Source of the DNA: Chthoniobacteraceae bacterium
GTDB taxonomy: Bacteria > Verrucomicrobiota > Verrucomicrobiia > Chthoniobacterales > Chthoniobacteraceae
Assembly: GCA_947448395.1 (NCBI GenBank)
Contig: CANFNA010000013.1
Location: 1-35,196 of the forward strand
Direction of reading: 5' to 3'
DNA: 35,196 nt
Every line of letters starts with the position of its first letter. Positions within the stretch are counted from its first letter, which is position 1. Below, piece by piece: positions 11,566 to 34,845 of the stretch. The notes beneath the pieces were generated by a model. It worked only from the letters and a program-made list of their open reading frames with translations, did no database searches and was not told where the DNA came from. The translations under genes were made by a program, and so were the position numbers.

Positions 11566-12339
11566 TTAGTTGGAAGCGGAGATGGACTCGCCTAGAAAAG
11601 GGCCGAGCTTTCTTTTGACTTTGTCTGCCCAAATATCTGCGGCGTTTGTGGATAAATGGACGCCGTCGCCACCGGACTTTCCAGGTTCATAATAGATCAT
11701 TCCGGTGGAATCGATGACCCGGAAACGGTTTCGGACTGAGGCTTGTTTGATTGCTCGAGTGACCAGTCCCTGGACTTTTCGAAAGCGGGAGGAGTCGGGG
11801 GGAGTGATCCATATAAGCGAGGGCTGAGAGGGGCTTGTGCGGATGGTTTTGACGAAGCGGTCCAAGATCTGGTCAAAATTTGCGAGGGTTTGTTCACTCG
11901 AGGATTCAGACAGGCGATCAAACCAATTAGTGCCGAGTTGAACGATTACGACACTGGGGCGCCAAGCACGCAGAATGGTTTCCACTTTCGGAACGGCGTA
12001 CGATTTTGGAGGGACTCCGTTCTCGTAGCGTCCGATTTTTAGATCGCCGGGCTTCTTCAGGCGATAGCCACAGCGTGAGGAAAATGTGGCTTCGTCACCG
12101 AGCCAGTGTTCGGGTGAACATCCACAGACGGCGATCACGCCAACGCCGCGGTCTGAAAATGTATCAATGAGATAGTTTTGGAGACTGTCTCCGAAAGGAC
12201 CGACGGTGAGGGAGTCACCAAGAAACAAAACCCTCTCACCGGATGCGTGCAGGGCGGGGACGTTTGCCTGTGCTAGGTGCCCACTCCGAAGGGTAAACAA
12301 AAGGCACAGAAGCAGGAGGCAGAAACGAGGGAAGGGCAT
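11566..12339 (-). CDS. Secreted SGNH/GDSL hydrolase, third gene of leftward acetylation operon
   Basis: 257 residues from the ATG at 12339, which starts a signal peptide (MPFPRFCLLLLCLLFTLRSG, probable cleavage after AQA). The catalytic blocks are intact: GDSLTVG with Ser43, QLGTNW with Asn138, and GGDGVHLS with Asp225 and His228. Several Cys residues (CGCSPEHWL, SSRCGY) could form disulfides in the periplasm. It is clearly a paralogue of the upstream SGNH protein: both share CG-x(2)-P-x(2)-WL, a second Cys-Gly, a VPK(V/I)E segment and the GTN block. It could be a polysaccharide O-acetylesterase, or an acetyltransferase acting on sugars delivered by the MBOAT system; the motifs do not decide. 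It starts 38 bp after the stop of the upstream gene, consistent with one operon. Confidence 0.85.
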   Translation of the reverse strand: MPFPRFCLLLLCLLFTLRSGHLAQANVPALHASGERVLFLGDSLTVGPFGDSLQNYLIDTFSDRGVGVIAVCGCSPEHWLGDEATFSSRCGYRLKKPGDLKIGRYENGVPPKSYAVPKVETILRAWRPSVVIVQLGTNWFDRLSESSSEQTLANFDQILDRFVKTIRTSPSQPSLIWITPPDSSRFRKVQGLVTRAIKQASVRNRFRVIDSTGMIYYEPGKSGGDGVHLSTNAADIWADKVKRKLGPFLGESISASN

Positions 12340-12377
12340 GATTGTGTCAGTTAAGGATGCAGGTGGAAGCACTCTTC

Positions 12378-13967
12378 CTATCGGTTCATGAGAGGGGAAC
12401 GCGCTTCGTCCTCTGCGAGAATGTACGGCAGAAGATCTGCGCGATCGACGACATCACTCTTCTTTGTGGATTCCCAGACAGACCCGTCTAACTCCACAAG
12501 GTCCAGTTTGTAGGACTTTAAGACGCGAAGCTTGGAGAGCGGCTGGTCCTGCAATCGGATGTGCGCCGGATGCATCACCAGTAGGTCCCTTTCCTTGTAA
12601 GTTCCGCTCAGAACTTCTTCCACGCGGTACAAGTAACTCACCAAAGACTCTTGGTACGGGAGAATTTGGTTTACTGGTAACACTGGGCTTTTTCGAATCA
12701 GCGTTGCTTTTACAGAAAGAATTTTGCGTCCGCCCGCCGTTGTAGAGGGTGCTGTCTCCGCTTTTGAGGCACCGGGTGCAGCGGGTATTTTCTGTGTGGC
12801 GAGCGGCGCATTCGAAATTTGCGCGCCGCCGATATCATCGGAGACGATCTTATATACGGCTTCCGCCCAGGCTGTCATATCTTTGCCGACGAAGTGTTCT
12901 TTGTCGGGCATCAATCCCTTGTATGGGTAGGTCAGAAGGTTGCGACTGTCGACGACGCGCCAGACCTGTTCTCCATAGAGCGAAAGTTTATCCACCAAAA
13001 AATCCTGAATGGCCGGCGTGTAGCGACCGGAAACGGGTGGTGCAACCCAGTAGATCCTCTTCAAAGAGCGCGGTAGAGTGCTGACACAGTTTCGGAACGG
13101 CACCAGGTTAGCGCGCATTTGAGAATCGTGACGGGTTGGGATGAGTGTTTTTCCATCACTGAACATGCTCAGCAGATTTGTCCCGCATTGCATGATGAGA
13201 ATGTCTGGATCGATGGTTTCAAAGAGCGATTCAATTTTTGGAACGAGATGCGGCGCGGGTTTATGCCCGCGGGTCATTCCATAAATGTCCTTACTTTCCA
13301 CTGGGGAAGACGCAGTCCCGCATTTCCCTTCAATCGTCCAGAAACCGCAGGGGGTTTTGATATTGGCGTAGGGACCTGTTTTCAGCCAACTCGCGGGCAC
13401 GACTCCGCAGGCCATGATCGTCGAAACGGAAGCAACATTTTGGTTGGTCCGAAGCTTCGAATCTAACGCCTTACCAAAACCACAGAGTGCCAATGAATCG
13501 CCAAGGACGAGGACGCGCAGTCCTTTGGTTTTCGATTTATCCCGATCCGGAGCAGGAAGCGGCGCGTTTCCAGTTGGTTCCGCACGCACCGCGGCGGTTA
13601 GCGCCGGAGTCGGTTGTGGCTCAGATGCGGCCAACAGTATTGGGCTTCCATGTTGGACGTTATGAGCAGGGGCTTCGGAAGCATCGGTTTGTGTGCATGG
13701 ACAGGGCTCAGGGACATCCTGCTTTTTTTGGGTGACTTGTGGTTCAGGAGGAGGGGGAGGCGGTTGGACTGCTGCGAGTTCGGGCTTGGCGATTGGCGGA
13801 GGCGTGGCCCCTGGGAATGGCACTCTCGGCTGAATGACTGGAGGAAAGGCAAACGATCGACTTTGAGTCCCTAACCAAAAGCATGCGATTGCCAGGATGG
13901 CCAATAGACCTCGGATAAACGTCTTGGTAATCCCTGTGGCTCCGCAGTTGGGGTGGTGGGCGTTCAT
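12378..13967 (-). CDS. Secreted SGNH hydrolase with proline-rich linker and extra C-terminal beta domain
   Basis: 529 residues starting at ATG 13967. An N-terminal hydrophobic segment (about 18-34) acts as signal or anchor, followed by a Pro-rich linker with a run of prolines near 69-74 and a low-complexity stretch to about 145. The SGNH domain covers about 150-385, with LVLGDSLA (Ser158), MQCGTN (Asn263) and PDKEHF (Asp355, His358). Cys residues in VASVSTIMACG and KTPCGFW may pair. From about 410 to 500 there is an additional domain with LPYQESLVSYLYRVEEVLSG and DLLVMHPAHIRLQDQPL, whose pattern matches the C-terminal domain of the AlgJ-like protein at 16631. Periplasmic action on an exported polysaccharide is likely. 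The gene lies 15 bp after the AlgX-like gene and 38 bp before its SGNH paralogue. Confidence 0.82.
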   Translation of the reverse strand: MNAHHPNCGATGITKTFIRGLLAILAIACFWLGTQSRSFAFPPVIQPRVPFPGATPPPIAKPELAAVQPPPPPPEPQVTQKKQDVPEPCPCTQTDASEAPAHNVQHGSPILLAASEPQPTPALTAAVRAEPTGNAPLPAPDRDKSKTKGLRVLVLGDSLALCGFGKALDSKLRTNQNVASVSTIMACGVVPASWLKTGPYANIKTPCGFWTIEGKCGTASSPVESKDIYGMTRGHKPAPHLVPKIESLFETIDPDILIMQCGTNLLSMFSDGKTLIPTRHDSQMRANLVPFRNCVSTLPRSLKRIYWVAPPVSGRYTPAIQDFLVDKLSLYGEQVWRVVDSRNLLTYPYKGLMPDKEHFVGKDMTAWAEAVYKIVSDDIGGAQISNAPLATQKIPAAPGASKAETAPSTTAGGRKILSVKATLIRKSPVLPVNQILPYQESLVSYLYRVEEVLSGTYKERDLLVMHPAHIRLQDQPLSKLRVLKSYKLDLVELDGSVWESTKKSDVVDRADLLPYILAEDEARSPLMNR

Positions 13968-13982
13968 GTTCCAGAATGAATC

Positions 13983-15044
13983 TCAGCGCCGGATTGGAAG
14001 CGGTTGCCATCCCTGATCCGCCTCGGTGAATTCGCGTGCGGCAAAGCACCATACGATCACTTTTTTAGAGGTTAAATAATTTGGGTCCTTGATGGAGCGT
14101 CTCAGCAGGCTGACTCGGACGGCCGTTGCGCCCGAACCACGAGTTCCGATTAAGTCTGGGATGAACCCTGTTTCGTGGGCGATTTGTTCCAGAAGCCCTG
14201 ATCTCTCGCCCAAGAACTCATGAAAAACGAGGGTATGGCTATCGCCCATCAACAGGATCGGGCTGGAGGGATCCGATTGTAGCGCTTCTCCCGAGGGAGA
14301 GGAGATCTGGCGCATCGAGATCAGTTCCGAATCGGAGGTCTGTGCCCCGGCATGGAGAAGTTCCGCAAGGTCGCCACGGATGGGCTTAGAGACCCACTTT
14401 TCTTGAAAGGTCAATTTTGGTTGTTTGCCGGAACCCTCGCCAAGGATGGGTCGCAGCGCCTCGGAGATCGCTTTTGCCGCCGTTACGCATCCGGTTCCCG
14501 ACCAATGAGAGTCTGTCTTGCAAAAGAGCGGCTCTTGGGCGGTCGCCATCTGATCTTTGAAGACGGGGCGCAGGTCGAGGAAGGAGATCTTTAGCCCCTT
14601 GAGCTCTTTGTAGAAGCTGTCGAGCGCATCGAAGTAGAAGGGGCCTTGGTTTTCTGGACCCAATTCCGCAGTGTAAATGGTCGCCTTTGGGGGGACCGGC
14701 ACTAGCAGGAGTTCGATTCCCGCCTTCTGTAGCTGTGCTTGGAATTGTGAAATGGCGGGCAGCGGGTCTGCAAATTCCGGCTTTGGGGAGCGAGACGCTT
14801 TTTTTGCGTTATTCCCCCAGAACGCAGGCTGTTGGAGAAATCTCAACTCAGCACCGAGGAAGAGCCAGCCATTCGATCCTAGCACCACGGGGGGCAGCGA
14901 GGGAGCAGGTTGCGTTTTTGTCACCGCATTATTGGCTGCAAACAAAGGGATAGCCGCGAGTAGGCACTGGCTTGCAAGGACGAAGGAGAGGCAGCGGGGG
15001 ATGAGAGTGCCACGGCGAGCGCGGAGGGTTTGAAAGTCGGCCAT
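13983..15044 (-). CDS. AlgX/AlgJ-like SGNH acetyltransferase (secreted)
   Basis: 353 residues from ATG 15044; the frame also opens at a TTG (15110), but the ATG puts a signal peptide at the N-terminus (about 17-38, ending LFAANN). The family marker NGWLFLGAE (about 58-66) is followed by a region with LLLVPVPPKATIY. The Asp-x-His-Trp signature is present as D178, H180, W181 in KTDSHWSG, and the nucleophile as GDSH with Ser269. These are the catalytic elements of AlgJ and AlgX, which move acetyl groups onto polysaccharide in the periplasm after an MBOAT partner carries acetyl across the membrane. The protein lacks the carbohydrate-binding module of AlgX. It is the first gene of a leftward three-gene operon, divergent from the MBOAT gene with 109 bp between. 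Confidence 0.88.
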   Translation of the reverse strand: MADFQTLRARRGTLIPRCLSFVLASQCLLAAIPLFAANNAVTKTQPAPSLPPVVLGSNGWLFLGAELRFLQQPAFWGNNAKKASRSPKPEFADPLPAISQFQAQLQKAGIELLLVPVPPKATIYTAELGPENQGPFYFDALDSFYKELKGLKISFLDLRPVFKDQMATAQEPLFCKTDSHWSGTGCVTAAKAISEALRPILGEGSGKQPKLTFQEKWVSKPIRGDLAELLHAGAQTSDSELISMRQISSPSGEALQSDPSSPILLMGDSHTLVFHEFLGERSGLLEQIAHETGFIPDLIGTRGSGATAVRVSLLRRSIKDPNYLTSKKVIVWCFAAREFTEADQGWQPLPIRR

Positions 15045-15077
15045 GGCTGAAGGGAATAGGTTCGTGTAAAGATGCCT

Positions 15078-15085
15078 AGTATAAT
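15078..15085. promoter_or_regulatory. Candidate overlapping -10 elements in the divergent acetylation promoter
   Basis: In the 109-bp gap between the AlgX-like and MBOAT genes, a perfect TATAAT lies on the plus strand at 15080-15085, and TATACT lies on the minus strand over 15078-15083. Neither has a good -35 box at 17 bp, so strength is uncertain. The position would give leaders of about 60 and 25 bases to the right and left. One A/T core serving both directions would coordinate the two operons. Confidence 0.35.
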
Positions 15086-15153
15086 CAGCGGTGCTTGATT
15101 CCGCATTCAATTCAGTTTTGTAAAAGTCAGATACTTCTCGGGAAGTCGAAGCG

Positions 15154-16629
15154 ATGGTTTTTAGTTCCCAACTCTTTTTATTCTACTTTCTGCCACTGAG
15201 CCTTGCAGTGTACTACGCGCTTGCTTGGGCTTCGCAGAAAGCGCGAAACCTATGGCTGGTTGTCACAGGCTATGTTTTTTACGGCTGGGCGGAGCCGCGT
15301 TTTGTAGCCCTCATGTTTGTCACCACCACGTTGGACTGGATGCTCAGTCTGGTGATCGCAAGGGATGATTGGCGGTTCTGGAAACGATCTGGACCGGTTG
15401 AACTCGTGCCCCGGCCTAGTTTGGGGGTTTCGGCGAGTCGGACAAGGAGACGAGCCCTTGCTTGCTCAGTGGTTAGCAATCTACTCGCGCTGGGCTTTTT
15501 TAAATACTTCAACTTTGCCACGGATAGCTGGAATCAGATTATTCACGGATTGGGCTGGGATGCAGCGGCGTGGGAGGGAACGCTCCGCGTCGTTCTACCG
15601 CTAGGGATCAGCTTTTATACCTTTCAAGCGCTGAGCTACATTATCGATGTTTATCGTGGTGATGCGGAAGCGATGGAGGACTTCATCGACTTTTCGTGCT
15701 TTGTGTCGATGTTTCCGCACTTGGTTGCAGGACCAATTTTGAAGTTTTCGTTTCTTGCGGAGCAGCTCAAAAGCAGGACGCTGACGCTTGAAAAATTCAG
15801 CCGAGGCGCTGCATTTTTTTTTATGGGATTGGGGAAGAAAGTGCTACTGGCAAATCCCTGTGGCAAAATTGCCGATGCCAGTTTTGATGCTGCAGCCCGA
15901 GGCTTTTGGGACGCTTGGGCGGGTGCGGTTGGATATGCGTTGCAGATCTATTTTGATTTTAGCGGGTATTCAGACATGGCCATCGGGCTTGGGTTAATGT
16001 TCGGATTTTATTTCGCTCGTAACTTTAACGCGCCCTACCGATCTGCCTCGCTCACCGAGTTTTGGCGGCGTTGGCACATTTCACTTTCTACATGGTTGCG
16101 CGAGTATCTGTATATACCGCTTGGAGGAAACCGGCATGGTGAAGGGCGCACCTACTTCAACTTGCTCATCACGATGCTCCTTGGCGGTCTATGGCACGGC
16201 GCCTCTTGGAATTTTCTCGTCTGGGGAGCTCTCCATGGCAGTGGACTGGCCGCCGAGCGCTTTTTGCAGACGCGGACGCAGTTGCGCGTTCCTTCCTTGT
16301 GCAGTGGTTTACTGACGATGCTCGTGGTCATCGTGGGCTGGGTTTTCTTCCGTGCGCCGAACCTGCCATCAGCGCTTTCCTATCTGCAGGCGATGCTGCC
16401 GGGTACGCCTCCAATCGACGCGCCTTGGGTGTTTGGAGTTTCTCAACAACCTTATCTTGTAGGCAGTCTTGGCATCGCGCTCACCGTCGTTGCCTTTGGG
16501 CGTCAGACTTGGGATTGGACCCAGCGCTTGAATTTGTGGAAGGCCTGTGCAATTGCCCTCATTGGCTGGGCTGGCATCGTGGCTCTGCTTACACAAGACT
16601 ACAACCCGTTCATCTATTTTATCTTCTGA
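15154..16629 (+). CDS. MBOAT-family O-acyltransferase, AlgI-like
   Basis: A 491-residue polytopic inner-membrane protein, the usual AlgI length, starting at ATG 15154 with the family N-terminus MVFSSQLFLFYFLPLSL. It carries the AlgI/PatA hallmarks: PLGISFYTFQALSYIIDVYRG, FPHLVAGPILKF, YFDFSGYSDMAIGLG, and NAPYRS followed by FWRRWHISLSTWLREYLYIPLGGNR. The putative catalytic His is H348 in GGLWHGASWNF. AlgI-type MBOATs pass acetyl groups, presumably from acetyl-CoA, across the membrane to a periplasmic SGNH partner that acetylates the polysaccharide. The partner here is probably the AlgJ-like protein encoded one base downstream, and possibly the divergent AlgX-like protein. No polymerase or glycan synthase gene is adjacent, so the glycan acceptor is made elsewhere, perhaps by the locus after 28 kb. 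Confidence 0.95.
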   Translation: MVFSSQLFLFYFLPLSLAVYYALAWASQKARNLWLVVTGYVFYGWAEPRFVALMFVTTTLDWMLSLVIARDDWRFWKRSGPVELVPRPSLGVSASRTRRRALACSVVSNLLALGFFKYFNFATDSWNQIIHGLGWDAAAWEGTLRVVLPLGISFYTFQALSYIIDVYRGDAEAMEDFIDFSCFVSMFPHLVAGPILKFSFLAEQLKSRTLTLEKFSRGAAFFFMGLGKKVLLANPCGKIADASFDAAARGFWDAWAGAVGYALQIYFDFSGYSDMAIGLGLMFGFYFARNFNAPYRSASLTEFWRRWHISLSTWLREYLYIPLGGNRHGEGRTYFNLLITMLLGGLWHGASWNFLVWGALHGSGLAAERFLQTRTQLRVPSLCSGLLTMLVVIVGWVFFRAPNLPSALSYLQAMLPGTPPIDAPWVFGVSQQPYLVGSLGIALTVVAFGRQTWDWTQRLNLWKACAIALIGWAGIVALLTQDYNPFIYFIF

Positions 16630-16630
16630 T

Positions 16631-18367
16631 ATGAGCGGAGCATTGCAAATACCGGCTGCGTCTTCACGGGTTGCCGCATTAGACCGCGAAGAAGAGGCAT
16701 TGGAGTGTCTGTCCACAACTCAGTTTCACGGTGTCTCACGGGGCGCGTTAGTATTGTTTTTTCTGCTCACCTTGCTTGCGGGTATAGTCGGTGAAACTGG
16801 GTTTTATGCTGGGAGCCGAGGCCCTTGGGGAGGCGCATTTATCGACGCCTTGTATCGACTATTTCCAACAAAGGGGCAGTGGGCATCTTTGCATTCTGTC
16901 AGCGATCTTTGGCATTTACTGCCAGAGCCGCGTACGACTCGCGACGCCGAGCAGGCTCTTGATCAACATGCTGCGCTGGTGAAGGTCCTTAGGCCTTCGA
17001 TTCAGATGATTCTGACTCAGCACCTTCGGGCAGGGAATGAGCAAGCGCTTGTAGCCCCCGACGGATGGCTTTTCTTCCGGAAGGATTGGGACTCAGTAGT
17101 CGGTCCGGGTTTTCTGAATGCCGACCAACTTCATAAGCGTCGAGAGCAATTGGGAATACAGCCTGATCCGCTTGTCGCGATTCTCGATTTTCGTCGGCAG
17201 TTGGCGGCCCGAGGGATTCGGCTGCTCATTGTTCCAGCCCCAGTAAAACCCGTTTTCGAGGGGGCGCGCCTAGTCCGCTCGTCGTCGGGGCAGCTTATTC
17301 AGAACCGCTCTTATGGGTCATGGAGGCAAAAACTTGCCGACCACCGGATTGATCTTTTTGACCCATCGGATGTTTTAGAAGCGCGCATGCGGGAGACAGG
17401 AAAGTCTCAGTACCTTCAAACCGACACCCATTGGGCGCCGGAGGGCATGCGCGCAGTTTCGGAGGCCTTGGCGGGATGGATCCGAGAGCATCTGGAGTTT
17501 GGGCCTTCGGATGGTGCCAGCGCAATGGCGGCAGGAGAGCTTCAGCATGTGAGCAACCATGGCGATACGTATGCGTTGTTGGGTCTTCCTGACACGCAGA
17601 TGCTATTTCCAAAGCAAACGGTCTCAGTCCTCCCAGTTCACCGCGGCGCGGCGCTTTGGAAGGCGGATCCGACATCGGAAGTGCTCTTATTGGGAGATAG
17701 TTTTACCAACATCTTTTCGCTCGGAAGCATGGGTTGGGGCGAATCGGCGGGCTTTGCAGAACACCTCAGTCTCGCCTTGGGGCAGCCCTTGGATGTGATG
17801 AGTCGCAACAGTGACGGGGCCTTTGCCACGAGGGGGATGCTCCAGCGTGAGCTGGCCGCAGGGCGTGACCGATTAAACGGAAAGAAACTGGTGATTTGGG
17901 AGTTTGCGTCCCGCGAGCTAGCATTCGGGGATTGGCGTTTTTTGGAGATGACGTTGGGGGAGAAAAAGACGTCTTCTTACTTTTGCCCGCCCGCACCGGG
18001 TAAGCGTCGAGTATGGGGCACTGTGGCCGAGATGGGCCCAATTTCGCGGCCTGGATCGGTTCCTTACAAGGAGCACATTGTGGCGTTGAGGTTGGTAGAC
18101 GTCACATTGGATCAAGACGGAGGTGAGTCGGCTGGGGACTGCCTCGTTTATGCTTGGAGTATGAAGGAGCAAAGGCTCACCGAGACAGCCTCCTTAAGGG
18201 TGGGCGATCGCGTGGCATTTGAGGTCTGTGCTTGGGATTCTGTGGCTGAAAAATTTGAGCGATTTCAGCGAGGAGAATTGTCCGACGCATCGCTTGCGGT
18301 GGAACCCTCTGTCTGGGGTGAATGGATTCCGTTTCGGGCGGACCCTTCCGAGGCGGGAGCAAAATAA
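16631..18367 (+). CDS. AlgJ-like membrane-anchored SGNH acetyltransferase with extra C-terminal domain
   Basis: 578 residues starting at ATG 16631, one base after the MBOAT stop, which implies tight coupling; an earlier in-frame ATG inside the MBOAT gene is unlikely to be used. One N-terminal membrane helix (about 38-55) anchors it facing the periplasm. The AlgJ/AlgX core follows, with APDGWLFFRKDW, ILDFRRQLAARGIRLLIVPAP, the Asp-x-His-Trp signature D265, H267, W268 (TDTHWAPEG), the nucleophile block LLLGDSFTN with Ser357, and the closing KKLVIWEFASREL. An additional domain occupies about 455-578 (GSVPYKEHIVALRLVDV, LVYAWSMKEQRLTETASL), of the same pattern as the C-terminal domain of the SGNH protein at 12378. 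Likely the direct acceptor of acetyl from the MBOAT. It is longer than AlgJ because of the extra domain. Confidence 0.9.
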   Translation: MSGALQIPAASSRVAALDREEEALECLSTTQFHGVSRGALVLFFLLTLLAGIVGETGFYAGSRGPWGGAFIDALYRLFPTKGQWASLHSVSDLWHLLPEPRTTRDAEQALDQHAALVKVLRPSIQMILTQHLRAGNEQALVAPDGWLFFRKDWDSVVGPGFLNADQLHKRREQLGIQPDPLVAILDFRRQLAARGIRLLIVPAPVKPVFEGARLVRSSSGQLIQNRSYGSWRQKLADHRIDLFDPSDVLEARMRETGKSQYLQTDTHWAPEGMRAVSEALAGWIREHLEFGPSDGASAMAAGELQHVSNHGDTYALLGLPDTQMLFPKQTVSVLPVHRGAALWKADPTSEVLLLGDSFTNIFSLGSMGWGESAGFAEHLSLALGQPLDVMSRNSDGAFATRGMLQRELAAGRDRLNGKKLVIWEFASRELAFGDWRFLEMTLGEKKTSSYFCPPAPGKRRVWGTVAEMGPISRPGSVPYKEHIVALRLVDVTLDQDGGESAGDCLVYAWSMKEQRLTETASLRVGDRVAFEVCAWDSVAEKFERFQRGELSDASLAVEPSVWGEWIPFRADPSEAGAK

Positions 18368-27378: not shown

Positions 27379-27396
27379 AAAAACACCTCGGGGGTG
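27379..27396 (-). terminator. Possible terminator downstream of tRNA-Tyr
   Basis: Read on the minus strand, cacc-cccga-ggtg forms a 4-bp stem with a 5-base loop followed directly by five T residues. It begins at the encoded CCA end of the tRNA. The stem is short, so efficiency is uncertain. Confidence 0.35.
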
Positions 27397-27480
27397 GTGG
27401 GCAGAGCTGGATTCGAACCAGCGAAGGCGTAAGCCAGCGGATTTACAGTCCGCCCCGTTTGGCCACTTCGGTATCTACCC
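27395..27480 (-). tRNA. tRNA-Tyr (anticodon GTA), CCA end encoded
   Basis: 86 bases on the minus strand fold as a class II tRNA. The acceptor arms gggtaga and tctgccc pair over 7 bp (one G-T). The anticodon stem gcgga/tccgc holds the loop ctgtaaa with anticodon GTA (plus-strand positions 27444-27446). A long variable arm (tggcttacgccttc) is present, and the T arm is gctgg-ttcgaat-ccagc. The CCA is encoded at 27395-27397. The D arm (gccaaacggggcgg) is typical of bacterial tRNA-Tyr. It sits at the edge of the glycan accessory region that follows. Confidence 0.95.
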
Positions 27481-28366: not shown

Positions 28367-29500
28367 TTGGGAGGCCTGCTGAACCCCAAAACACCTCACC
28401 GCAATGGCAAAGCACATCTTGTTTACGGAGTCCTCTCGAAATGTGGGGGGCAAGAGTTGCAATTTATGCAGCAAATGGCGGTCATGCAGGCCAACGGATT
28501 TCAAACAGCCTTAGCGTGTCGACTTGGGAGTCGCGTTGAGGAGGTTGCCAGGGAAAAGGGGCTGAACGTGCTAACCCTAGGCTTTCGCAACAGCTTTGAC
28601 ATCCGCACCATTCTAATCCTCCGCGAATGGATTGCGCGAAACAGGCCCCTCCTCGCCATTTGCCACAGCGGACACGACACTAACAACCTCGCCATCGCAG
28701 CGCGTCTCGTGAAGAGCAGACCCTTCTTATTGCGCTCGCGAACGTACCAACCTGGGAAGGCTCGAGCATTTTCCTACAACCGTCTTGTTGATGCCACCAT
28801 GCTCCCAAGCGGCTATTTAAAGGGCTGTTTGCTGGCCAATCCGAAGGTTCAGTCCGAACGCCTGCACGTCGTGTATCCCGGAATCGATTTCGCAGCCCTC
28901 GATCAAAACGCGTCGTCGGCATTGCCTCCCCCCTTGGAAACTTGGCTGATGCGGAAGGGCGGTCCGATCATTGTCCACGTGGCCATGCTTCGCGGCGAGA
29001 AGGGGCACATGACACTCCTGTCAGCCTTGCACGATCTCAGAGAACGCTGGCCTGACGTTCGATATGTGATTGCTGGAGAAGGAGGCGAAAGGGAGCGAAT
29101 CAACAGTGAAATCAGGCGCTTGGGGTTGGAATCGAGAGTTTACATGGCGGGCATGATCAGCCCAGTGGCCTCGCTCATCTCGCGCTCGGATTTATTGGTG
29201 ATGCCCTCAAGTTATGAACCATTGGGCATGGCCCAAATCGAAGCCCTTGCCCTTGGGGTGCCGGTAATTGCGAGTCGAACCGGTGGAATTCCGGAGACGG
29301 TCGAGCATGCTGCCACCGGGCTACTTGCCGATCCGAATCAGGTGGCAGCGTGGGCCTCGGTCTTAGATGAGGCTCTGTCCAATCCCGAACGGATGCGAAC
29401 CCTTGCCAGAGCGGGACGCGAGGTCGTCCGCCAGCGATTTTCCTCGGAAATGAACATGAGGGAGATCCTCCGGATTGCAGGTTTGGAGTTGGGTCGATAG
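28367..29500 (+). CDS. GT4-family glycosyltransferase (GT-B fold)
   Basis: 377 residues of a retaining glycosyltransferase that adds a sugar from a nucleotide donor, probably on a lipid-linked surface glycan. The N-terminal acceptor domain opens with KAHLVYGVLSKCGGQELQF. The C-terminal donor domain has VHVAMLRGEKGHMTLLSAL, YVIAGEGGERERI, the GT4 Glu-x7-Glu motif in SYEPLGMAQIEALALGVPVIAS, and TGGIPETVEHAATGLL. No ATG lies before the conserved N-terminus and the frame is closed upstream by a TAA at 28322, so TTG 28367 is the likely start. The 5' end abuts the decayed epimerase, so its original promoter may be lost or new. The acyltransferase-3 gene follows after 83 bp on the same strand. Confidence 0.88.
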   Translation: MGGLLNPKTPHRNGKAHLVYGVLSKCGGQELQFMQQMAVMQANGFQTALACRLGSRVEEVAREKGLNVLTLGFRNSFDIRTILILREWIARNRPLLAICHSGHDTNNLAIAARLVKSRPFLLRSRTYQPGKARAFSYNRLVDATMLPSGYLKGCLLANPKVQSERLHVVYPGIDFAALDQNASSALPPPLETWLMRKGGPIIVHVAMLRGEKGHMTLLSALHDLRERWPDVRYVIAGEGGERERINSEIRRLGLESRVYMAGMISPVASLISRSDLLVMPSSYEPLGMAQIEALALGVPVIASRTGGIPETVEHAATGLLADPNQVAAWASVLDEALSNPERMRTLARAGREVVRQRFSSEMNMREILRIAGLELGR

Positions 29501-29583: not shown

Positions 29584-31659
29584 ATGCACAGAGCCTCATC
29601 CGTAAACCCTATTTACCATCCTAGTTATCGCCCGGACATCGATGGCCTTCGAGCGGTGGCAATTCTCCCAGTGATCTTGTTTCACCTCTACCCGGCTTGT
29701 GCTCCGGGGGGATTTGTAGGAGTAGATGTTTTTTTTGTAATATCGGGTTATCTAATTTCCCTGATAATTTTCCGTAGTCTCGAGCGTGGAACGTTTAGCT
29801 TTTCGGAGTTTTATGCCAAGCGAGTACGCCGAATTTTCCCTGCACTAATCGTAGTGCTTTCCGCCTGTTATACCCTCGGCTGGCTTCTACTCCTCCCGGA
29901 CGAGTTTCGGCTTTTGGGTAAGCATCTCGCCGCCGGTGCCGGCTTCGTGCAGAATATAATTTTGCAGCGCGAAGCCGGATACTTCGATGTCGATTCGGAG
30001 ATGAAACCGCTCCTGCACCTATGGTCCTTAGCAATAGAGGAGCAGTTTTATATGGCCTTCCCCTTGATGGTTTGGCTTTTGTGGCGTCGGCCACCTAACC
30101 TCATTCTTGGGTTGATACTAACCTTAATGGCCTCCTTCGTTTTGGCGGAACAAGGCGTACGTAGTGACCCCGTTAAGGCCTTTTATCTACCGCACCACCG
30201 ATTTTGGGAAATGATATCGGGGGCTCTCCTAGCCCTCTCACAGAGTTCCCGACTGTCCCCGGTCTTCAACCGCGCGAGCCCTTTGGAAGAGTTCAAGAGC
30301 TGTCAGGCGTTGACAACACTTCGCAGCTGCGCCTCACTGTTGGGCTTCCTGCTGATCGCAGCGTGCGTTGCAGGATATCACGCTAAGGTTCCATGGCCGG
30401 GAGCCCTTGCGCTGGTGCCGGTACTGGGTGCTGTTCTTTTGATCGCAGCCGGGCCGGCGGGCTGGGTGAACCGCAACCTACTGGCCGCGCGCCCTATGGT
30501 ATGGATTGGCCTTATTAGTTATCCGCTATATCTATGGCACTGGCCGCTCCTTGTTTTCCTTCGTATTATTGAAGACGGCGCCGTACCCTCGATAGCATCG
30601 CGACTCGTAGTGCTAATGGCTACGTTCGCCCTTGCGGTGCTCACCTATTGGTTGATCGAAAAGCCCCTCCGATTCGGAACGCGTCCCAAAATGGTTGTGT
30701 TGGGACTTTCTGCTTCGTTGGCGGTGATATTAACCATTGGTGTTCTAGCCAAAAATAATTTACCAGAGAAACGTTCCTTGCTTATTGTTCGAAAAGGATA
30801 TGCCGAACTGGTTGCCCGGTTCGGCTCGGATCGGTGGTATTCTGGGAAAGAAAAATGGCTGTTTCTCGGCAATAAGCATGACAACACACTTCGGAAGTTG
30901 GAATTGCGCGTTACTCCCTCAGCAAGGCAGCTGCAAACCTTCAAAGCACAAATTTCAAATTTGGCGCGGGCAGGGGAAAAGTGTGGTGTGCCTGTAGCTC
31001 TAATGGTGGGGCCCGACAAGGATCGCATTTATTCGGAATATCTACCAGACGAGCTACAGCCCTCGCTGCGGAGATACGTGGATTTCTTTCTTGAGGGGTT
31101 GGTGGATGTTCCAAATCTAGTCGTATACGACCCCTTGAAGGATTTAAACGAACGAAAGTCCAACGGTTTACTTTATTGGAAAACTGACAGTCACTGGAAC
31201 CAGCTTGGCTCCTTGGTGGCTTGGCAAGGATTGACAAAAAAGATCGGCCTGCCGGAGCTTAACGTTGAATTGCGTCCGAGCTCCGTCGCGTATTCCGGCG
31301 ACCTCTTAGAGCTGTCCGGATTGAAAGATGTGATTCCGAACACGGTGGATAACTACGAGGCTATATGGCCGATTGCGCCCGAATTAAGGGTTCTGCCATC
31401 TACCGTAAAAGCACAGAAGGCGCCATTCCGATGTGAGGTTGTTCACAACTCGAGGGCGGTGACCGATAAGCGCGTTTGGATCATCGGAGATTCCTTCGCC
31501 GACGGACTCCGGCCCTACATTAACGGCACCTTTAAAGAGATCTCGTATGTCGGACACTGGAGGGACTGGCTTCCCGATGAAAAGTTGCCGAAATTGCTCG
31601 AACGCTCGAACGAAAAACCTGACCTCATTATCGTGGTCCGCGTTGAGAGAAGCTTCTAA
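29584..31659 (+). CDS. Acyltransferase-3 (OafA-like) fused to AlgX/AlgJ-like SGNH domain
   Basis: 691 residues from ATG 29584 (a TTG at 29506 is less likely). Residues about 10-380 form a polytopic acyltransferase-3 domain with YRPDIDGLRAVAI, GVDVFFVISGYLIS, YAKRVRRIFPAL, HLWSLAIEEQFYMAFP and SYPLYLWHWPLLVFLRI. The C-terminal periplasmic part (about 415-691) is not the usual OafA SGNH domain. It starts SGKEKWLFLGNKHDN, like AlgJ/AlgX, has the Asp-x-His-Trp signature D535, H537, W538 (KTDSHWNQLGS) and a nucleophile block IIGDSFADG (Ser637). The acyltransferase-3 half should bring acyl groups across the membrane and the SGNH half transfer them to an exported glycan, as in OafA but with a different second domain. 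Located between a glycosyltransferase and an FkbM methyltransferase. Confidence 0.88.
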   Translation: MHRASSVNPIYHPSYRPDIDGLRAVAILPVILFHLYPACAPGGFVGVDVFFVISGYLISLIIFRSLERGTFSFSEFYAKRVRRIFPALIVVLSACYTLGWLLLLPDEFRLLGKHLAAGAGFVQNIILQREAGYFDVDSEMKPLLHLWSLAIEEQFYMAFPLMVWLLWRRPPNLILGLILTLMASFVLAEQGVRSDPVKAFYLPHHRFWEMISGALLALSQSSRLSPVFNRASPLEEFKSCQALTTLRSCASLLGFLLIAACVAGYHAKVPWPGALALVPVLGAVLLIAAGPAGWVNRNLLAARPMVWIGLISYPLYLWHWPLLVFLRIIEDGAVPSIASRLVVLMATFALAVLTYWLIEKPLRFGTRPKMVVLGLSASLAVILTIGVLAKNNLPEKRSLLIVRKGYAELVARFGSDRWYSGKEKWLFLGNKHDNTLRKLELRVTPSARQLQTFKAQISNLARAGEKCGVPVALMVGPDKDRIYSEYLPDELQPSLRRYVDFFLEGLVDVPNLVVYDPLKDLNERKSNGLLYWKTDSHWNQLGSLVAWQGLTKKIGLPELNVELRPSSVAYSGDLLELSGLKDVIPNTVDNYEAIWPIAPELRVLPSTVKAQKAPFRCEVVHNSRAVTDKRVWIIGDSFADGLRPYINGTFKEISYVGHWRDWLPDEKLPKLLERSNEKPDLIIVVRVERSF

Positions 31660-31851
31660 GCAAGAGCTGTTGCGAGAAGTGGGCAGGGGTACTCATGCGC
31701 GACCACTTTATTTGGATTTAACTGACCAGCCGAACTACAGTCAGGACTCCCGATCTTCACACATTCCTGTGGTGGCGCGTTATGGTGTCATGTGCGCCGT
31801 ACGGCGGTAAATGAATTGAGGTTCTCTAGTGAATTACATAAAACAACGCGC

Positions 31852-32742
31852 ATGAAGGTCAATCAGCGCCAAGAGGAGAAACGTTTTGTTAGACGGTTGC
31901 GGTTAATCAGAATGGTGTTCAGATTGGCGCGCCTCGTTCGAGGCAAACCGATCACAAGGCTGATTGATTGGTTGTGCTATTTCTCCAAGGACAAGGCGGA
32001 TCGATTGCAAATCGTAGCTCCCTATCATGGAGATCTCTTAATGCATTTGGACGTGCAGAGTTGGGTGGAAAGGAAGATTTTGTGCAAAGGTTACTACGAA
32101 GCATGGGTAGCGAACTTCCTTTCTCGGTCGTTGAAGCCGGGGCATGTGGCTTTGGACATCGGGGCCAATATAGGATGTCACACGCTGGTCATGGCGAGTG
32201 CGGTTGGAAATCAGGGGCGAGTCCTTGCTTTTGAACCTAACCCGAGAATTCTCGCGCGACTTCGCTCTAACGTCCGCCTGAATCGGTTCGACCACGTAGA
32301 GCTTCTACCAGTTGCTTTGAGCGACAATCAGGGACGCTCCAGCATCTTTATTCCGGCCGAATTGGATCACAATCAGGGCTTGGCCAGCATGCATCGAGCG
32401 AACCTTGGGGGGGGATGTGAGGAAGTGTCGGTCGACGTTGAATTATTGGATGACGTGGTTAGTGGGAAAAAGTTAGAGCGGGTCGACCTAATTAAAATGG
32501 ATGTTGAGGGACACGAGTGGCACGTACTTCTGGGCGCGAAAAAGACCTTGGAGCGTTTCAAGCCCGTCCTCGTTTTTGAATTTAGCCAAAGACAGTGGAA
32601 AAATGCCGGATTTAGTCCGGAGCAGGTCGAGGAGTTTCTGACAGACCTTGGCTATGACTTGTTCGTGATGCGGGAGGATTACATAATGAGCATCCGTCAC
32701 GGCGTGGCCGAGCACGGGGACCTTTTGGCTCTTCCCAGATGA
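31852..32742 (+). CDS. FkbM-family SAM-dependent methyltransferase
   Basis: 296 residues from ATG 31852; a GTG at 31792 would add 20 polar residues and is less likely. The SAM-binding motif I is HVALDIGANIGCHTLVMA, motif II is LAFEPNPRILARLRSNV, and the FkbM marker KMDVEGHEWHVLLGA lies in the C-terminal half. FkbM enzymes methylate hydroxyl groups of sugars or polyketides; in a surface-polysaccharide locus the target is probably a sugar hydroxyl. A basic N-terminal extension of about 60 residues (many Arg) precedes the domain and could bind membrane or nucleic acid, but this is not known. The 192-bp gap before it and the 172-bp gap after it hold nothing recognisable. Same strand as both acyltransferase-3 genes. 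Confidence 0.9.
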   Translation: MKVNQRQEEKRFVRRLRLIRMVFRLARLVRGKPITRLIDWLCYFSKDKADRLQIVAPYHGDLLMHLDVQSWVERKILCKGYYEAWVANFLSRSLKPGHVALDIGANIGCHTLVMASAVGNQGRVLAFEPNPRILARLRSNVRLNRFDHVELLPVALSDNQGRSSIFIPAELDHNQGLASMHRANLGGGCEEVSVDVELLDDVVSGKKLERVDLIKMDVEGHEWHVLLGAKKTLERFKPVLVFEFSQRQWKNAGFSPEQVEEFLTDLGYDLFVMREDYIMSIRHGVAEHGDLLALPR

Positions 32743-32914: not shown

Positions 32915-34845
32915 ATGAGCGCTTTAAGGTATCGTACAGACATTGATGGTTTGAGAGCAGTGGCGGTACTCGGTGTGGTTATTTACCATGCGTTCCCCAA
33001 GATGGTTCCAGGTGGATATACTGGGGTGGATATTTTCTTTGTAATAAGTGGGTATTTGATCAGCGGAATATTGTATAAGGAGAGTGTCAGAGGCGTCTTT
33101 AGCTTTGCGGAGTTTTATGTGAGGAGAGTGCGAAGGTTGTTCCCCGCCCTCATCGCCGTATTGATCTTTTGCTTTGGGTATGGGTGGTTGATTTTGCTGC
33201 CCGACGAGTTCAAGCAACTGGGGAAACATTTAGCGGCTGGGATAATGTTTTCTCAAAATCTCGTCTTGTGTGGAGAAAGCGGGTATTTTGATGTGGCGGC
33301 GAATCTGAAACCACTTTTGCATTTGTGGTCTCTGGCGGTCGAGGAACAGTTCTACATCTTTTTTCCACCCTTGTTTCTGCTTGTATCTAGAAAGAACTGG
33401 CCGCTTTTACGTGTCCTCGGATTGTTGTTAACGGCTTCCCTCGTTGGGAATTTGGTGATGTCAGAGAAAAGCGAGGTGCTTGCTTTTTATCTGATGCCGT
33501 ACGCATCTGGTAATTCCCAGGTGGGAGCTTGCTGGCGAGGCACCACTTTGCCGAGGGCAGCGGGAAAAAGAGCCCCGGGGTGAGCAACGCCTTTTCATTG
33601 GCAGGTATAGTACTCATAGCGGTAGGAATGGCCGCTTTTCAACATGGCGATCCTTATCCGGGATGGAGGGCATTACTTCCTGTCTTAAGAACGGTTATGC
33701 TGATCGAGGGGGGCGAGACTGCATGGGTTAATCGCGTGGTATTATCCAAGCCTGCGATGGTGTGGTTTTGGCTAATTAGTTATCCGCTCTACCTTTGGTA
33801 CTGGCCATCTTTGGCCTTTGTGCAAATTTTAAAAGGGCCGAAACCAAAACCAGTTTATTGTTTAAAGGCTGTCGCCTTTAGCATGATACTAGCTGTGCTT
33901 ACTTATTATTTTGTCGAGAAGAGGTTAAGGCACGGAAGAGGTAAATGGGTTGTTTGCCTTCTATGTGCCGCATTCCTTCTAGTTGGCTTTGCTGGATGGT
34001 TGGCATTCACGGGTAGGCTGCCATCTAGGTCCATTCCAGCGGATCTTCTTAAGAGCGTTGCTGCTACTCGGGACAGGGATTCTCTCTCGGGCCTCAGATG
34101 CTTGAGCCAAAGAGGCACGGTGTTGTTAAATCATGTCGGGGGCGAGGGAAAACTAACTTTATTTTTTGGGGATAGTAACATGCAGCAATACGCCCCAAGA
34201 ATTCGGGAGGTTTTGAAAAACGCGAATACTAGCGAGAGAGGGGCTCTCTTTCTAACGGCAGGGGGGGTGCCACCGATACCCGGAGTTTCGAAGGCGGGAG
34301 TTTCGGGGTCTGAAGATTTGCATCAAACATTCAGGGAGCTCAGTCTATCTGAGACTCGGGTTGACAGGGTGGTGATCGCGGCTCGGTGGGATCTCTATTT
34401 TTCACCCTCCTCGAAATACCGCTTTGGAAATCGGGCTCTTTCGGAGAGTGCTGCAAGACGGGATGCCTTGGAGGCTCTTGGTCGGCTAATTCGCGAGAAG
34501 GTGGAAAGTAACAAAAGAGTGACGGTGCTTTTATCGACCCCTAATGGCGAGGGCCTCAATCCCAGGCTTTATGCAAAGAGGGGCTTTTTTTCTATGCCAG
34601 AGATCCGGCGTGTCGATTACACGAGGTCCCAACATGTAGAATCTCACGGTGAGATGCTGCGGGAAATCGCTTCCGTTGCTGTCATTAACGGGGCGGAAGT
34701 GGTTGATCCGCTTGAGCACCTCTGCGAGGGAGAAATCTGTATCGCAGAGAACGATGAGGGGCCTATCCGCTACGATGCAAATCATCTCCGACCGGGGTTT
34801 GTTCGTGATCACGTCAAGTTTTTGGATACCACCGTGTCACCGTGA
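32915..34845 (+). pseudogene. Acyltransferase-3 (OafA-like) with SGNH domain, frameshifted
   Basis: The gene starts at ATG 32915 (RYRTDIDGLRAVAVLGVV) and reads to about 33528 with GVDIFFVISGYLIS, VRRVRRLFPAL and HLWSLAVEEQFYIFFP. It continues one frame back from about 33529 to the TGA at 34843 with SYPLYLWYWPSLAFV and a C-terminal SGNH domain. The SGNH domain has a GDSN nucleophile block (LTLFFGDSNMQQYAPRI) and DANHLRPGF. Together they make an OafA-type protein of about 640 residues. Around 33502-33530 the expected RIWEFQVGALLA-like segment is spoiled by what looks like two 1-base losses, one 1-base gain and one substitution. The net result is one missing base and a stop at 33581-33583 in the first frame. 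It is either a true pseudogene or a sequencing error. If repaired it would O-acylate a surface sugar. Confidence 0.85.

Follow-up and report, generated by a model that had tools for sequence, protein, structure and literature searches.

One gene of the window (the whole 35,196-nucleotide stretch of DNA analysed here, from a Chthoniobacteraceae bacterium) encodes a chain in which an N-terminal acyltransferase-3 (AT3) domain is joined to a C-terminal domain of the AlgJ/AlgX type, and its product is likely to be a two-domain membrane O-acyltransferase like OafA, OafB and OatA in which the periplasmic transferase has been swapped for one of the AlgJ/AlgX type. The architecture, the conserved residues, the recurrence of the fusion in other genomes and the presence of AlgX halves of a single clade on three AT3 lineages are all observed. 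The gene is divided as listed below.

29584..31659, + strand: AT3-ALGX fusion gene (P0001), 691 aa, stop included in the coordinates (open reading frame, Pfam, alignment)
29635..30651, + strand: AT3 domain (Acyl_transf_3, PF01757), residues 18-356 (Pfam, motif alignment to OafB)
30685..30759, + strand: helix 368-392, the inferred transmembrane helix 11 (model helix, identity profile)
30760..30843, + strand: short linker, about residues 393-420 (sequence, low pLDDT from residue 396)
30844..31656, + strand: predicted AlgJ/AlgX-type, circularly permuted SGNH-like acyltransferase domain (Pfam, profile, alignment, fold)

Both domain assignments are well above the Pfam cut-offs, with 109.8 bits for Acyl_transf_3 over residues 18-356 (PF01757, cut-off 31) and 50.6 bits for ALGX over residues 421-582 (PF16822, cut-off 26.5). 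Together with full-length homologues in two other genomes, these matches bear out the initial annotation, which had described an AT3 domain joined to an AlgJ/AlgX-like C-terminal half. The C-terminal half scored no better against the OafA-type SGNH family, since PF19040 was not matched even at E≤1, and DHHW (PF14286) reached 12.4 bits, below its cut-off. The rest of this half, through to its closing VERSF, can be aligned both to the other fusions and to stand-alone relatives. Profile comparison aligned the C-terminal half with MBOAT-adjacent AlgJ-like proteins over 256 columns (99.8%, E 9.5e-30), whereas with AT3-fused SGNH domains the alignment shrank to about 98 columns near the His block, at displaced positions (79.6%, E 1.5e-5). 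Among PDB entries, the closest to this half by sequence are P. putida AlgJ (4O8V) and B. cereus PatB1 (5V8D/5V8E), each of which works with an MBOAT protein.

Structure prediction gave a full-length model in which the AT3 domain (most blocks >90) and helix 368-392 are confident and the linker, from residue 396, and the active-site loops are of low confidence, many loops having pLDDT under 50; the C-terminal half modelled alone reached a mean pLDDT of 35. Foldseek searches with the C-terminal half, many of whose loops lie at pLDDT <50, returned PatB1 and AlgJ as top matches, at E 8e-4 to 5e-3, and also DHHW, and the AT3 half matched HGSNAT with acetyl-CoA, weakly. As modelled, helix 11 would put the C-terminal half in the periplasm.

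Key residues of both active sites are present. In the AT3 half, alignment showed R23, H34, R83, Y201, S312, Y316, E359 and R363, which correspond to OafB R14, H25, R74, Y194, S288, Y292, E334 and R338 as read from a motif alignment guided by BTP1 GtrC (640 aa), whose residues agree with the published OafB positions; R23 and H34 form the R-x10-H of AT3 helix 1. The proposed acyl-carrier Tyr of OatA and OafB (Y201 of the window fusion) is Phe in 10 of the 44 aligned AT3 domains, among them that of a second fusion (L046, below), so this Tyr may not be essential in the AT3 family. In the AlgX half, WLFLG (425-429), D535-x-H537-W538 and S637 within GDSF lie where the initial annotation had placed them; the full blocks read GPDK (476-479, with K479 of the PxK motif), KTDSHW (533-538) and GDSF with the nucleophile S637. 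These AlgJ signatures are not strict across the fusions described below, L046 reading ANK and L127 TESHW. The D535/H537 block precedes the S637 block, the circularly permuted order. A His block before the Ser block is known for the AlgX family, unlike OafA (PMC9487903).

Relative to known systems, the window fusion resembles the AT3-SGNH proteins OafA, OafB, OatA and PglI in its N-terminal AT3 with the same key residues, in helix 11 and in a C-terminal extracytoplasmic transferase, and its AT3 half shares as much as 63% identity with ordinary AT3-SGNH proteins; it differs from them in a permuted C-terminal half (His block first), in DxHW rather than DxxH, in the absence of PF19040 and in a shorter linker. 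With AlgJ and AlgX of alginate O-acetylation it shares the PF16822 match, PxK, DxHW and the catalytic Ser, but AlgJ and AlgX work as free-standing periplasmic partners of the MBOAT AlgI, with GTSYS at Block I, whereas the window protein is covalently joined to an AT3 and carries GDSF. PatB1 (DHHW), which in B. cereus works with the MBOAT PatA1, ranks first or second among the solved relatives by profile and by fold; it too is a separate protein, and its family, PF14286, stays below cut-off on the fusion.

The fusion is rare, and at least three copies were found, a count that refers to the matches listed, with close relatives covered. When 84,980 species were scanned by pattern, one further full-length fusion emerged, in a Burkholderiaceae MAG (L046, 692 aa); it is 46% identical to the window fusion and matches both PF01757 and PF16822. 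A third (L127, 697 aa, genome G812) turned up when 399 genomes of the order of L046 (Burkholderiales-type) were searched by profile. No other fusion was seen in the window's own phylum, whether with the C-terminal half as query (197 near relatives), with the whole protein (387 genomes) or by profile (276 genomes), and further sampling of the proteobacterial class and of its phylum added none. Two apparent candidates were set aside: a Vibrio plasmid match over query residues 14-499 is an ordinary AT3-SGNH protein, and a long-frame match in genome G112 is a different multidomain protein without AT3. Carriage by phages or plasmids was considered and rejected, as no fusion was found in the phage or plasmid collections, and two scans of viral contigs gave no relatives. 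Among the matches listed, two-domain AT3 proteins near the fusions carry PF19040 in 69 of 71 cases and ALGX in the other 2; therefore the AlgX domain occupies the SGNH position, and the AT3-AlgX fusion is a rare variant of the AT3-SGNH kind. No earlier description of a fusion of AT3 and AlgX was found in the openly accessible literature.

The two halves have separate histories. A tree of 49 AT3 domains scatters the three fusions over three distinct positions among ordinary AT3-SGNH proteins: the AT3 of the window fusion groups with Rhodocyclaceae and Nitrosomonas AT3 proteins (100/100, 61-63% identity), that of L127 with a Burkholderiaceae AT3 (99/86), and that of L046 is placed near other AT3-SGNH proteins. 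A single clade of the three was recovered in 0% of bootstraps, which in this tree are not fully settled, and was rejected by an AU test framed once the identities had been seen (p=0.006, lnL difference 80). The three AlgX halves, in a small tree of 16 rows, form one clade (99/97) that is sister to Bartonella plasmid proteins (100/99), its nearest neighbours thus being proteins whose genes adjoin MBOAT genes. Sliding identity places the window fusion nearer to the AT3-SGNH protein L047 up to about residue 380 and nearer to the other fusions after about residue 400, so that its ancestry switches at about residues 380-400, at helix 11 or just after it, in the linker. The two trees and the identity switch together indicate that one kind of AlgX module was combined with different AT3 modules. 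The best reading of these sequences is module exchange, in which an AlgX-type transferase was joined to different AT3 exporters and would receive its acyl groups from AT3 rather than from an MBOAT; such an exchange may have come about through movement of the AlgX module or through replacement of the AT3 half. An origin by local fusion from the AlgX genes found elsewhere in the window (13983-18367) was rejected, those genes being distant in the C-terminal tree.

The fusion gene is set between genes consistent with a surface glycan locus, and lies about 13 kb from the nearest MBOAT gene, as listed here.

13983-15110, - strand: AlgX-family gene flanking the MBOAT gene (Pfam)
15154-16629: nearest MBOAT gene, about 13 kb from the fusion, with its own AlgX-type neighbours (Pfam)
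16547-18367, + strand: AlgX-family gene flanking the MBOAT gene (Pfam)
28367..29500, + strand: GT4-type glycosyltransferase, directly upstream of the fusion (context: surface glycan locus)
31792..32742, + strand: FkbM-family methyltransferase, directly downstream of the fusion (context)
32915..34845, + strand: ordinary AT3-SGNH gene (PF01757 and PF19040), frameshifted (Pfam, open reading frames)

The acceptor of the enzyme is probably a surface glycan, and no alginate genes were seen near the fusion. The last gene of the list agrees with the initial annotation of a second AT3 gene with its own SGNH domain, though a frameshift near 33500-33530 splits it into frames of 222 and 438 aa; it may be a pseudogene or reflect a sequencing error. 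The first part of its AT3 is 60% identical to that of the fusion. Recent duplication as the source of a shared AT3 half is not supported; the AT3 of this tandem neighbour sits elsewhere in the tree on a long branch. Upstream of the fusion, 11566-18367 constitutes a separate MBOAT-SGNH acylation set with two further GDSL/DUF459-like genes, and no MBOAT gene neighbours the fusion within 27-35 kb of the window. The fusion gene begins about 2 kb beyond a tRNA-Tyr gene (27395-27480), and a tRNA gene is also found near the fusion at L046 (4081-4155). Genomic islands commonly occupy tRNA genes; no integrase was seen by the window cluster or by the L046 fusion. In G812 the fusion gene is solitary, with unrelated housekeeping genes on either side.

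On the simplest reading of these sequences, the AT3 half would be the acyl donor for the AlgX half. A different arrangement, in which an MBOAT encoded elsewhere charges the AlgX half in trans while the fused AT3 does no more than anchor that half, or works independently, would fit the gene neighbourhoods of the stand-alone relatives: those of Bartonella and Deinococcus adjoin an annotated MBOAT gene, and within the window's phylum motifs point to one at 9 of 11 loci; two MBOATs are also encoded in the genome of the window and two in that of L127. We nevertheless judge it very unlikely, given that none was found in the genome of L046 (a 2.2 Mb MAG, perhaps incomplete), that the gene stands by itself in G812, that the AT3 donor residues are kept and that the AlgX domain sits exactly at the position of the AT3 proteins' own transferase.

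Should the AT3 instead transfer the acyl group alone, the AlgX half would be an esterase, a structural domain or a glycan-binding domain and not a transferase. AT3-only transferases do exist (PMC9558356), AlgJ has weak esterase activity (PMC9487903), and L127 reads TESHW, with Glu replacing the catalytic Asp of DxH. Set against this, the three fusions, at about 45% identity, all retain the Ser, the His and the Lys of PxK, and AT3-SGNH enzymes need their C-terminal domain for transfer (PMC7448272), which makes a non-transferase role decidedly improbable. That the fusion is an assembly chimera or a decaying gene is barely credible: the genome of the window is indeed unfinished, at 268 contigs, and the adjoining AT3-SGNH gene is frameshifted, but two other assemblies carry this fusion at full length, without internal stops and with conserved active sites, and these independent copies refute a chimera.

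We therefore return to the fusion as an AT3-fed acyltransferase. From the conserved residues, the 10-helix AT3 would take cytoplasmic acyl-CoA, most likely acetyl-CoA, and present the acyl group at the outer face. The acyl group would then pass to S637 of the AlgX-type domain, which helix 11 would tether to the membrane, with D535 and H537 predicted to complete the triad. This domain may in turn acylate a hydroxyl of a surface glycan, for which whatever the adjacent glycosyltransferase locus makes is a possible candidate. We infer that AlgX domains can take acyl groups from AT3. There is a precedent in WecH, an AT3 protein that can replace the MBOAT PatA with PatB (PMC7448272, PMC9558356), which renders an AT3 donor chemically plausible and lowers the surprise. 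What the two cases would share is an AT3 as acyl source for the kind of SGNH protein that an MBOAT normally serves; they differ in that WecH and PatB are two proteins and PatB belongs to the DUF459 family, not AlgX, whereas the window holds a natural covalent fusion. The initial annotation had also proposed that the chain joins two otherwise separate systems; the joining holds, on three AT3 backbones, but strict prior separateness does not, since WecH can stand in for PatA.

In AT3 and MBOAT systems alike, the handover of the acyl group between membrane protein and outer transferase is an unsettled matter. The chances are evenly balanced that the AT3 and MBOAT handovers are so alike that their periplasmic transferases are freely exchangeable, one type of MBOAT-partner transferase having been combined with AT3 exporters on at least two or three separate occasions. 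As natural chimeras, these proteins indicate that a permuted AlgX-type domain can fill the canonical SGNH place on different AT3 backbones, and they make donor-acceptor compatibility directly testable through helix 11 swaps.
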